From assembly GCA_016926475.1 (NCBI GenBank), contig JAFGON010000079.1, forward strand, positions 1 through 8,197: a DNA stretch of 8,197 nt, written 5' to 3'. The notes below the pieces were generated by a model. It was not told the origin of the DNA, did not search any database, and saw only the letters and a program-made list of their open reading frames with translations. The stretch comes from a candidate division WOR-3 bacterium. Lineage in GTDB: Bacteria > SDB-A. The position numbers and the translations under genes were made by a program. Below, piece by piece: positions 2,061-8,197 of the stretch (within the stretch, counting starts at the first letter, position 1; each line of letters begins with the position of its first letter).

Positions 2061-3242
2061 ATGCTTCCTTTTCTCCGTTTAACGTTGTCTTTGTTTTTTG
2101 GAATTTACGGATTTTACCCAGAAAATATTGTCTCGGATTTTACCCTTGGGCTGGAACCAGATATAGTTTCCCTGGTTTTCGTCGGAGATATAATGGTTCA
2201 CGATGAACAGTTAAAAGGGGCAAAAGACGCTGTCAGCGGGGAGTATGACTTTTCAAGCAGTTTTGATGATGTAAGGAATATTCTGTCCGGAGCCGATTTA
2301 ACAATGGGAAACCTCGAAACGACTCTCGCCGGTGAAGAAAAGCTTTTCACCGGCTACCCCCGCTTCAATTCACCAGACGAACTCGCGCAAGCGCTAAAAG
2401 AAACGGGCTTCGATCTATTGACAACAGCAAACAACCACTGTCTTGACAGGGGAGAACAAGGGCTTGTAAGGACTCTGGAAGTTCTCGACAGCATCGGAAT
2501 TTACCATACCGGCACATTCAGGGATTCTTCCGAAATGGATTTTTTGTTGATTTCCGTAAAAAACATCGACATCGCTTTTTTATCTTACACTTACGGGACA
2601 AACGGACTTTTTCTCCCTAAAGGCAGCCCTTGTCAAGTGAATTATATCGATACGGAAAATATCAAGAAGGCTATTCACCTCGCGGATGAAACCGGAGCCG
2701 ACGCGATAGTCGTGATTCTGCACTACGGCACCGAATACGATTTAATCCCCTCTGCACGTCAAAAAGCCCTTTTCGATTCGGTGTCTTCTTTCGGCGCGGA
2801 TCTAGTGATAGGAATCCATCCGCATGTAGTCCAGCCCATGAATTTAAAAAATTCACCAGAAGACATGCTGAAGCTTTTCTTCTATTCTCTGGGAAACTTC
2901 ATATCGTCTCAAAGAACTGTTCCGAGAGACGCAGGGCTGATTTTAGGGGTAGAGCTCAAAGTTTACCGATCCGGCTGGACGTTTTTATCCGGCGTCAATT
3001 TCCTGCCGACCTACGTCCAATTCAAGCCAGAAAACGGCAAATACGATGTGAGGGTAATAGACGCGACAAAAGCTTTTTCCCGAATCCAATCTGGTGACAG
3101 TTTGTCTTTTTCAAGCTACGACAGAAGCAGGATAAAAAAAATAGCAGAAAATCTCCCCTGTCATTTCCTCAGTATGACTGAGAATCTTCTTTCAACATAC
3201 GATTCTTTGACCGGTTTTTTCAAAGTTGAGATTTCGTATTGA
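2061..3242 (+). CDS. capA: CapA family protein (PGA_cap metallophosphatase fold), exported
   Basis: This 393-residue protein belongs to the CapA/poly-gamma-glutamate synthesis (PGA_cap) family, which has a calcineurin-like phosphoesterase fold. Its core motifs are in order: VFVGDIMVHD (39-48), GNLETTL (83-89), TTANNHCLDRG (121-131), VVILHYGTEY (217-226), GIHPHVVQPM (251-260) and FFYSLGNFISSQ (273-284). The Asp, Asn and His residues in these are the family's predicted metal ligands. Residues 3-17 are hydrophobic, consistent with a signal peptide or anchor and an extracytoplasmic site. Family members have been tied to capsule polymer synthesis, but many have no proven substrate, and capB/capC partners are absent here. 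It starts one base after the previous stop with no ribosome site, so translation is probably coupled. Its last 23 bp overlap the end of folE2 on the other strand. Confidence 0.85.
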   Translation: MLPFLRLTLSLFFGIYGFYPENIVSDFTLGLEPDIVSLVFVGDIMVHDEQLKGAKDAVSGEYDFSSSFDDVRNILSGADLTMGNLETTLAGEEKLFTGYPRFNSPDELAQALKETGFDLLTTANNHCLDRGEQGLVRTLEVLDSIGIYHTGTFRDSSEMDFLLISVKNIDIAFLSYTYGTNGLFLPKGSPCQVNYIDTENIKKAIHLADETGADAIVVILHYGTEYDLIPSARQKALFDSVSSFGADLVIGIHPHVVQPMNLKNSPEDMLKLFFYSLGNFISSQRTVPRDAGLILGVELKVYRSGWTFLSGVNFLPTYVQFKPENGKYDVRVIDATKAFSRIQSGDSLSFSSYDRSRIKKIAENLPCHFLSMTENLLSTYDSLTGFFKVEISY

Positions 3243-3252
3243 AACCGGTTTT
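3211..3252. terminator. Possible intrinsic terminator in the capA/folE2 convergent overlap
   Basis: The arm CCGGTTTTTTCAA (3211-3223) pairs with TTGAAACCGG (3239-3248), leaving a three-T bulge and a 15-nt loop. Four T follow on the plus strand. The structure contains both stop codons (capA 3240-3242 and folE2 3222-3220). The stem is imperfect and the T run short, so it would be a modest terminator, mainly for capA. Confidence 0.35.
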
Positions 3253-4014
3253 ATCCCTCTCGATCTCGGCGTAAGCCGAGTGGTTGTGAATGCTCTCCAT
3301 GCTCTCGCATTCTACCCGGAACCATACGATTCTATTATCCGCGAGAAGTTCGTCTGCAACGCCCCTGACGACGTCTTCAACAAATTTTGGATTGTCGTAA
3401 GCATTTTCGGTGACGAATTTTTCGTCTTGTCTTTTCAACAAAGAATAAAGTGCTCCGCTTGAATTTCTCTCGGCGAGTTCGACCATTTCTTCTATCCACA
3501 CAAAATCCCTGTATCTTATCCTGATTAAAACTCTCGCCCTCTGGTTGTGTGCTCCTCTATCGGAAATTTCCTTTGAACATGGACACAGCGTCATCACAGG
3601 AACTCCAACTTCAAGCGTGAACTCTTCTTTTTCACCCAATATGCCGTGAAACCGGCAGTCGTAATCCATAAGACTTTCTCTGCCGCTCACCGGCGCCGAT
3701 TTTTTAATGAAATACTTGAAGCTGACGTCCATAACAGCTTTACCGGCGTCGAGTTCATCCCTGACGTGCTTCAGGATTTCACCCATGTTGAGCATTGAAT
3801 ATTCTTTCTGGTATGAATGTAAAATTTTCACAAACCTGCTCATATGGGTTCCCCTGAAATGCTTTGGAAGCTCTACGAATATCGAAATTTTCGCAAGGGT
3901 CTGCTGAGTTTTATTTTCTCTGTCTTCGACGGAAATAGGGAAGTATATGTCTTTTACGCCAACCGAATCTATTTCTATGCCGTGATAAGGTTGGTCATTC
4001 TGGACATCGGGCAT
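3220..4014 (-). CDS. folE2: GTP cyclohydrolase IB (FolE2), first step of 7-deazaguanine/folate synthesis
   Basis: The enzyme converts GTP to 7,8-dihydroneopterin triphosphate. Family hallmarks are visible throughout. The N-terminus is MPDVQNDQ and then GVKDIYFPISV, followed by the LPKHFRGTHMSRF core. The active-site segment is MTLCPCSKEISDRGAHNQRA, with the cysteines and the histidine that the family uses for metal binding and catalysis. The C-terminus is ESMESIHNHSAYAEI. Its 264 residues are a normal full length. I start at ATG 4014 because the family usually begins MPDVQ. A TTG at 4020 would add two residues and has AGGGG eight bases before it, so it cannot be excluded. The start lies 7 nt after the queD stop. 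Pairing with queD points to queuosine (preQ0) rather than folate as the main destination. FolE2 is the alternative to the zinc enzyme FolE (family knowledge). Confidence 0.93.
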   Translation of the reverse strand: MPDVQNDQPYHGIEIDSVGVKDIYFPISVEDRENKTQQTLAKISIFVELPKHFRGTHMSRFVKILHSYQKEYSMLNMGEILKHVRDELDAGKAVMDVSFKYFIKKSAPVSGRESLMDYDCRFHGILGEKEEFTLEVGVPVMTLCPCSKEISDRGAHNQRARVLIRIRYRDFVWIEEMVELAERNSSGALYSLLKRQDEKFVTENAYDNPKFVEDVVRGVADELLADNRIVWFRVECESMESIHNHSAYAEIERDKTGFNTKSQL

Positions 4015-4021
4015 TTTCAAT

Positions 4022-4387
4022 TCAACCGCCCCTGTATGCGCATTTTGAATTATCGCTCTCCCAGACCGTTATTTCAAACAGCTCAGGGAGCAGGGGTTTC
4101 AGTCTGTCCCAAAGCCATATCACGAGGTTTTCGCTTGTTCCTTTCTCGAGCCCTTCAATCTCGTTTAGGTATTTATGATCTATTTTCTGTATTATTGGAT
4201 CGACTGTGTCTTTTATATCCCCAAAATCCATCAGCCATCCGATTTTACCGTCAACCCTACCTTTTATGCTGACGTCAATTCTGAATGAGTGCCCGTGAAG
4301 AGCGCTGCATTTGTGAGCTTCTGACAGCCCTGTTATCCTGTGGGCTGAATCAGCCCTAAAAGTTCTCGTCAAAATCACCGTTTTCAT
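4022..4387 (-). CDS. queD: 6-carboxy-5,6,7,8-tetrahydropterin synthase (QueD)
   Basis: This 121-residue enzyme of the 6-pyruvoyl-tetrahydropterin synthase fold turns dihydroneopterin triphosphate into 6-carboxytetrahydropterin, the second step to preQ0 and queuosine. The zinc ligands are His16 (DSAHR) and His31/His33 (LHGHSF). The catalytic Cys27 lies in the CxxxHGH arrangement (KCSALHGH) that marks QueD and separates it from the folate-type PTPS-III, which carries Glu there. Asp70-His71 (KIDHKYLN) and Glu110 (VWESDNS) complete the active site. Length is typical. The ATG at 4387 has no Shine-Dalgarno sequence, but a perfect TATAAT ends eight bases before it, so the mRNA may be leaderless. It is the first gene of the queD-folE2 operon. 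QueC and QueE are not in the window. Confidence 0.92.
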   Translation of the reverse strand: MKTVILTRTFRADSAHRITGLSEAHKCSALHGHSFRIDVSIKGRVDGKIGWLMDFGDIKDTVDPIIQKIDHKYLNEIEGLEKGTSENLVIWLWDRLKPLLPELFEITVWESDNSKCAYRGG

Positions 4388-6804: not shown

Positions 6805-6833
6805 ATTATAATCTGTCAATATTATTTTATGAA
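6805..6833 (-). promoter_or_regulatory. Promoter of the ltaE-nitroreductase operon
   Basis: On the minus strand, TATAAT (6810-6805) is a perfect -10, with TTCATA (6833-6828; 4 of 6) 17 bp upstream. Transcription would start near 6798, leaving a 48-nt leader that holds the AAGGAG ribosome site. The -35 overlaps the start codon of the divergent cyclase remnant. The same AT-rich block also contains a plus-strand TATAAT (6807-6812). Confidence 0.45.
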
Positions 6834-7381
6834 AACAAAAATATTCATACCTGATTTTTTTTCCGAGAAATATTCAATAGGCGAGTATTCGGGCAATTTC
6901 CTGGGCTGCGCAATGTTCCTCGATCTGTCAGGTTTTACTTCAGTGACAGACAAATTGATGAGAGAAGACAAAGAAGGCATTGAAGTTCTGGGAAATTTCC
7001 TGAGTCAAATCTTCGAAAATATAATTTCAAACATTCACCAAAGAGGCGGTTTTATATCATCTTTCGAAGGAGACGCACTCCTGGCGATATTTCCGGGCGA
7101 AGAAAGCTTTAGAGGCGCCCTGTCGTGTTCAGAGGAAATAAACGGATTTTTCTCAGACAAATCTGTTTTCAAGACAAAGTTCGGAAATTTTTACATCTCC
7201 ATAAAGACAGGAATCTCCTACGGAGGCATTGACTATCTCATCACCGGCAAAAAACAAAGAATGGTTTACACTTTTTCAGGAGATGCGGTAAAGAAAAGTA
7301 TTAAATGCCGGAAATATTTACCTGTCCTCTAAAAGACACGGCAAATTAAAAGAGATCAACGATAAATTATCAATGATAAAC
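6829..7381 (+). pseudogene. Class III adenylate/guanylate cyclase domain, frameshifted and truncated
   Basis: The intact part (6829-7332, 167 codons) is a class III cyclase catalytic domain. MFLDLSGFTSVTDKLM carries the first metal Asp (Asp32). GGFISSFEGDALLAIFPG carries the second (Asp82). Later come ISIKTGISYGG and VYTFSGDAV, the family's GDAVN block with Lys in place of Asn. The frame then breaks after about residue 159 and ends in an unrelated RKYLPVL. From 7304 the next frame carries the expected continuation, NAGNIYLSSKRHGKLKEIND, to about 7380. Only about seven residues separate GDAV from AGNI, where the family has about a dozen, so a short deletion of 3n+2 bases is the simplest cause. 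Homologues with this N-terminus often carry long ATPase/TPR regions, none of which is present. No Shine-Dalgarno sequence precedes the ATG. It is most likely non-functional. Confidence 0.75.
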
Positions 7382-7383
7382 GG

Positions 7384-7482
7384 TCAGGCTGCCGAACCTG
7401 AAAAGGATTCGTAGAGGTTTTTGTAGAGCTCGCATTTCTCGAACAGTTCTTCATGCTTCGCCGTCATGATTATTTCGCCCTT
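7384..7482 (-). pseudogene. C-terminal tail of an ABC exporter (gene remnant)
   Basis: Read on the minus strand, 32 codons and a stop encode KGEIIMTAKHEELFEKCELY followed by KNLYESFSGSAA. This matches the extreme C-terminus of ATP-binding/permease exporters of the MsbA/MdlB type, where a G-x-I-V-x-x-G-x-H-x-E-L-L stretch precedes G-x-Y-x-x-L-Y. All upstream domains (Walker A, signature, Walker B, membrane part) are missing, and an in-frame stop (7485-7483) lies directly before the first recognisable codon. The 3' end abuts the cyclase remnant tail to tail. It is a decayed relic of about 10 percent or less of such a gene. The assignment rests on a short motif, so it is moderate. Confidence 0.6.
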
Positions 7483-7561
7483 TTAATTCGAAAAATAGCT
7501 TGTCAACTACTTGAGGGTTTTGAGGTGATGAGTAAAACTGAAAGTAGATCTGTCAACAATT
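7483..7561. other. Non-coding stretch between the ABC remnant and the CRISPR array
   Basis: This is a short AT-rich stretch with no credible gene. It holds the heptamer TGTCAAC twice, at 7501-7507 and 7551-7557, exactly 50 bp apart. On the minus strand each reads as GTTGACA, which contains a perfect -35 hexamer, but neither has a good -10 at the right distance. In the likely direction of array transcription this is the trailing end. I see no strong terminator hairpin here. Confidence 0.4.
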
Positions 7562-7589
7562 AAAACACCCCCAGGCACGTGGGGAAGAC
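7562..7589 (-). repeat. Degenerate terminal CRISPR repeat (leader-distal)
   Basis: This copy differs from the other ten at two positions: A for G at 7562 and G for C at 7574. The second change destroys the apical C-G pair of the repeat hairpin. Decay of the last repeat is normal at the end away from the leader, and this supports minus-strand array polarity. Confidence 0.9.
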
Positions 7590-8197
7590 CGACTAATCCA
7601 CCTAAAAATCCACCACCGGGGAGAAACACCCCCACGCACGTGGGGAAGACCATGTACTGCCATCATCGCCGTAACTTTTGAAAGAAACACCCCCACGCAC
7701 GTGGGGAAGACGATTTGAAAATCTAAATAAGGCAGTAGGGGATAGAAACACCCCCACGCACGTGGGGAAGACTCCGCTTGCTTCGGGAAAATTATAAATC
7801 ATTCGGAAACACCCCCACGCACGTGGGGAAGACTCCTCGTAAGTCTTGAAAGAAAGAGACAACTCGGAAACACCCCCACGCACGTGGGGAAGACCAACGG
7901 TTTTCTGATAATCTGCTTGAGTCCCAAGAAACACCCCCACGCACGTGGGGAAGACCATCTGAAATCCCAGCGGAGAAGAGGACCCACGGAAACACCCCCA
8001 CGCACGTGGGGAAGACACTGTGGTTTGTTCGGGGATATAGTGGATGAAGGAAACACCCCCACGCACGTGGGGAAGACTATGAGAATGTGAAGTCGACGAT
8101 AAACTGTCTGGAAACACCCCCACGCACGTGGGGAAGACTTTTCAAATCCCATGCTTTCCTCCTCTTTTATAGAAACACCCCCACGCACGTGGGGAAG
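7562..8197 (-). CRISPR. CRISPR array, type I-E-like repeat, 11 repeats and 10 spacers, continuing past the right edge
   Basis: A 28-bp repeat recurs with a strict 61-bp period, and every spacer is 33 nt. Repeat starts are 7562, 7623, 7684, 7745, 7806, 7867, 7928, 7989, 8050, 8111 and 8172; the last is cut by the edge after 26 bases. Repeats 2-11 are identical over the bases visible. On the minus strand the repeat begins GTCTTCCCC, contains the stem CCCCACG-CA-CGTGGGG, and ends GGTGTTTC, which is the usual shape and length of type I-E repeats, the last eight bases being the crRNA 5' handle. That suggests minus-strand transcription. It fits with the only degenerate repeat being at the left (leader-distal) end and with a leader beyond 8197. 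No cas gene lies in the window, so the subtype rests on repeat character and the 61-bp period alone. Confidence 0.97.

Follow-up and report, generated by a model that had tools for sequence, protein, structure and literature searches.

Spacer-initial pyrimidines in a type I-E CRISPR array of a candidate division WOR-3 bacterium as probable remnants of an AAY PAM

We analyzed a stretch of 8,197 nucleotides (the window), one end of which carries a CRISPR array whose spacers all begin with C or T, and we conclude that this spacer-initial base is almost certainly copied from an AAC or AAT motif in the captured DNA. We are highly confident that the array is of type I-E and that its Cas1e-Cas2e picks prespacers at a 5'-AAY-3' PAM, the Y being retained on integration. 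The phenomenon has already been published; the window array is one more member, and the rule is not new. The features to which we refer are as follows.

7562..8197, minus strand: trailer-side half of a type I-E CRISPR array, with ten 33-nt spacers
Within 7562..8197, minus strand: nine complete 28-bp repeats, GTCTTCCCCACGTGCGTGGGGGTGTTTC
7562-7589, minus strand: degenerate terminal repeat, GTCTTCCCCACGTGCCTGGGGGTGTTTT, with two changes, forming the trailer end
8172-8197, minus strand: repeat cut by the contig end, 26 bases
7622, minus strand: T, initial base of the spacer at the trailer end; equivalent positions follow at 61-base intervals as far as 8171
8171, minus strand: T, first base of the spacer closest to the contig end

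The crRNA sense of the array is the minus strand, and its 28/29-bp hairpin repeat with a period of 61 bp (28 + 33) is characteristic of type I-E. A first-pass annotation of this DNA had listed the ten spacer-initial bases as C or T throughout, and re-reading the ten positions gave an identical list: T, T, T, C and C at 7622, 7683, 7744, 7805 and 7866, and T, C, C, C and T at 7927, 7988, 8049, 8110 and 8171, all in crRNA sense (10/10 pyrimidines). Its estimate that chance would produce this about once in 1000 was likewise borne out, the recomputed value being ∼1.2e-3 with pyrimidines making up 51% of the other bases of the window spacers. What follows the degenerate repeat at 7562-7589 is non-spacer sequence beginning with A, as expected at a trailer. 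Beyond it, a 167-aa open reading frame (6829-7332) resembles by eye the start of a nucleotide-cyclase-like protein and seems to be truncated immediately ahead of the trailer, and a stretch at ∼7390-7490 on the minus strand resembles, again by eye, the C terminus of an ABC-type transporter ATPase (KGEIIMTAKHEELFEKCELYKNLYE); the former had no Pfam match at E 0.001, and the latter no Pfam match. The trailer seems to abut gene remnants. Farther away, the minus strand at 3223-4387 carries adjoining genes, one for a FolE2-type GTP cyclohydrolase and one for a protein of the 6-pyruvoyl tetrahydropterin synthase family.

Elsewhere in the genome, the window repeat is found only at the end of a second contig, C84, where a complete type I-E operon (cas3-cse1-cse2-cas6e-cas7-cas5-cas1-cas2) precedes an AT-rich leader and eight repeats. 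The operon scored over cut-off for the NCBIfam models TIGR02547, TIGR02548, TIGR01907, TIGR01869, TIGR01868, TIGR03638 and TIGR01873 and for cas3_core, and the gene set that defines type I-E (cas3, cse1, cse2, cas7, cas5, cas6e, cas1e and cas2e) is present at this single locus. Its seven complete spacers begin with T, C, T, C, C, T and T (7/7 pyrimidines), and a partial eighth with T. Because the contig ends share an exact 27-base overlap (C84 terminates in the repeat plus T, and the identical 27 bases, CTTCCCCACGTGCGTGGGGGTGTTTCT, open the reverse complement of the window), the T of this partial spacer and window position 8171 may be one and the same base. Window and C84 together therefore give 17/17 or 18/18 pyrimidines, with a chance expectation of ∼1e-5 to 6e-6, and C84 and the window's contig (C79) are probably one array split in assembly. 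C or T comes first in 17/17 complete spacers, as in nearly all those of Vibrio cholerae, and G, the base fixed at position 29 in Escherichia coli K-12, in 0/17. No match to this Cas1e was found in the other three genomes of the phylum that were examined, and a Candidatus Desulfaltia genome encodes the most similar Cas1e found, at 87% identity, a distribution that suggests horizontal transfer.

When genome contigs were scanned once with this Cas1e, 78 loci were returned, the majority with an array directly behind cas1-cas2. Fifty-six of these, drawn from several phyla and including both loci of the present genome, have repeats ending in TTTC and together hold 1,594 unique spacers. A pyrimidine came first in 1,552 of these 1,594 spacers (97.4%; T 54.8%, C 42.5%, A 1.3%, G 1.3%), and the bias is confined to that base, positions 2-8 and the final six being near-uniform. 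The first-pass annotation had held that purines at the expected rate in further spacers would speak against its reading; they are absent from the seven on C84 and make up 2.6% of the TTTC set. Coincidence might have been entertained on the window alone, where a value of ∼1e-3 stands among the many observations a reader might make, but the further 7/7 on C84 and the frequency in relatives refute it and leave it a vanishingly small probability. In 34-nt spacers the pyrimidine is kept at the start without exception (32/32); changes in length therefore occur at the other end, and spacer length is measured off from the Y. Arrays whose repeats end in GTCC or AACC carry G in the slot (94/94), and those ending in ATCC, from Bacillota and Actinomycetota, carry C or T in 82%, one of them (L097) being mixed. 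This actinomycete I-E array has 16 G, 9 C, 4 T and 1 A as first bases, and a second (L099) has 7 G and 3 T; both possibly have a looser last PAM base.

Alternatively, since the slot lies directly after an invariant repeat, one could envision the pyrimidine as belonging to the repeat, at a degenerate position 29 that would be copied whenever the repeat is duplicated and would mutate from C to T or back; the G of E. coli was formerly depicted in this way. Under such circumstances one would not expect C and T to be intermixed along each array, as they are, nor the proportion of C among pyrimidines per array to rise with spacer GC (Spearman 0.63, p 1e-5, 40 arrays), a trend that suits a base acquired from invaders. 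Moreover, protospacers in several phages have the identical C or T next to AA, as described below, and we consider inheritance with the repeat extremely unlikely.

Protospacers were sought with repeat-free spacer strings because queries with entire arrays picked up other arrays in the genomes by way of their repeats. The window's ten spacers gave only chance or repeat matches to GenBank phages in distant mode and only short chance matches to four genomes of the phylum, and eight exact 22-mer scans of IMG/VR, one spacer each, found no match. Five large related arrays (L045, L035, L041, L054 and L056) yielded no usable protospacer among phages. Matches to a bajarodmic virus and a Gokushovirus recurred with unrelated arrays and were set aside as probably repeat-driven.

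Eleven spacers from relatives did have protospacers, and in 9/11 the best match was preceded by AA and began with a pyrimidine (p 7e-10 against 1/16); in the other two, CA or AG replaces AA. Vogesella spacer 10 (CTCC...) has GAA or AAA in front of its protospacers, which lie in Halomonas phage phiHAP-1, Vibrio phage VP882, Burkholderia phage BgVeeders33, three Pseudomonas phages and several genomes of the Vogesella family. Best-match flanks of further Vogesella spacers, with the spacer's first base after the slash, are CAA/C (spacer 9), GAA/C (22 and 23), CAA/C (26), GAA/T (27, with a weaker match, GAT/T, in phage FLC10) and CCA/C (15). The six Vogesella spacers with AA at the best match have their targets in phages or in genomes of relatives. 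Outside Vogesella, Ectothiorhodospira spacer 58 is flanked by GAA/C in the terminase genes of an Erwinia and a Salmonella phage, Marinobacter spacer L065-3 by CAA/T at two places and CAG/T at a third, Serratia spacer 15 by TAA/T, and Chimaeribacter spacer 16 by AAG/C at its best match and AAA/C at the next. Several of these matches cover only 27-29 of 33 bases, so that the targets are homologous to the sequence from which the spacer derives but are not that sequence. In the AA-flanked targets the base after AA is the spacer's own first base, C or T, which is the agreement between array and protospacer flank that had been proposed as a check. With AA before the protospacer and Y at its start, the motif is therefore 5'-AAY, the Y being carried into the array. 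These flanks uphold the earlier proposal that the unit is a 28-bp repeat, a PAM-derived Y and 32 nt of spacer, and they specify the proposed PAM ending in Y as 5'-AAY-3', a motif that extends to the window array by homology. Because protospacers were found for relatives and not for the array's own spacers, its PAM-derived reading is reached in the same way, and we infer that those spacers, too, came from AAY sites.

A purine-first spacer in Vogesella indigofera (L098 spacer 8; L175) is the only one explained among the 2.6%. Its first base is A, and it matches its own chromosome perfectly, with GCG in front; many relatives carry comparable sites, and the flank at these sites is GCG or GTG, not AA. 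To judge from these sequences, the host itself was the source of this spacer, at a place lacking the motif, and the need for a motif should make the spacer harmless.

The bias could also arise without a PAM if the integrase or crRNA processing favored pyrimidine ends, and in V. cholerae interference is indeed affected by which base comes first in the spacer (PMC7677007). Such a preference alone leaves unexplained the AA that occupies the two bases just upstream of the protospacer, bases that the array does not contain, and we regard this explanation as very unlikely. We thus favor capture of the base from the PAM, for which the following sequence of events may be proposed. Cas1e-Cas2e would select prespacers adjoining a 5'-AAY-3' PAM (RTT on the other strand) and take up the prespacer together with it, and the trimmed end is predicted, by the precedent of E. 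coli, to retain one PAM base, the PAM strand putatively being trimmed one base inside the motif as it is there. With AAY as the PAM, the retained base is C or T. Each new unit would then consist of a duplicated 28-bp repeat and a 33-nt insert made up of the PAM-derived C or T and a 32-base guide. Because Y is common to target and array, discrimination of self from non-self would rest on AA in the target as opposed to TC at the repeat end.

In a Cas1e tree, the groups with TTTC repeats and Y, and with ATCC repeats and Y, fall in different clades, and the GTCC group, with G, adjoins the TTTC group. It is conceivable, although we incline slightly against it, that repeat end and Cas1e clade jointly predict the position-29 rule (TTTC giving Y; GTCC and AACC giving G), with Y in two separate clades and more than one switch of base specificity, possibly through few Cas1 residues. 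At the column of F175 in this organism's Cas1, W is found in 6/6 G-type Cas1e and F in 40/47 Y-type; F175 is only a candidate specificity residue, confounded with ancestry and long branches.

These observations leave the understanding of type I-E unchanged, but they show that the rule described for Vibrio and Gardnerella also holds at 56 TTTC-repeat loci in several phyla, and they provide an AAY PAM prediction and a fixed spacer boundary for a large group of I-E arrays from uncultured bacteria. With the boundary fixed and the PAM predicted, spacers of such arrays can be oriented and matched without experiments, and the difference between Y and G offers a natural contrast with which to search for the Cas1 residues that recognize the final base of the PAM.

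Several systems have been described with which the window array can be compared. In E. coli K-12 type I-E (2012), the last repeat base is the third base of the PAM (PMC3338789); the same slot, position 29, is thus PAM-derived, but the PAM is AAG and the slot is therefore fixed as G. CRISPR4 of Streptococcus thermophilus DGCC7710 (type I-E) also has 33-nt spacers, and AA lies upstream of its protospacers (reviewed in PMC3890593); AAY is listed for Lactobacillus casei as well (PMC4246573). In Gardnerella vaginalis type I-E (2012), 97.5% of spacers begin with C or T and AA lies immediately upstream of protospacers, although that study left open whether the C or T belongs to the repeat, as base 29, or starts the spacer (PMC3559282). 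G. vaginalis shares the first trait with the present array and the second with protospacers of the relatives studied here, but is an actinobacterium, and in the related Bifidobacterium array recovered here the repeat ends in ATCC and the Cas1 belongs to a distant clade. The type I-E system of V. cholerae O395 (GI-24; Bourgeois et al. 2020, PMC7677007) has the repeat of the window except for loop bases 13-15, and likewise 33-nt spacers that nearly all begin with C or T. The two differ in host and in kind of evidence, interference having been shown in V. cholerae and the present case being drawn from sequences. Among 873 V. cholerae spacers, 99.7% of those with targets begin with a pyrimidine, the motif is RTT, spacer and target agree at the base concerned in 94-98% of pairs, and the purine in the target proved in conjugation assays to be required for interference (PMC7677007). 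Its PAM, AAY (written 5'-RTT, for the other strand), with the Y captured from the prespacer, matches the AAY found here in the protospacers of relatives.
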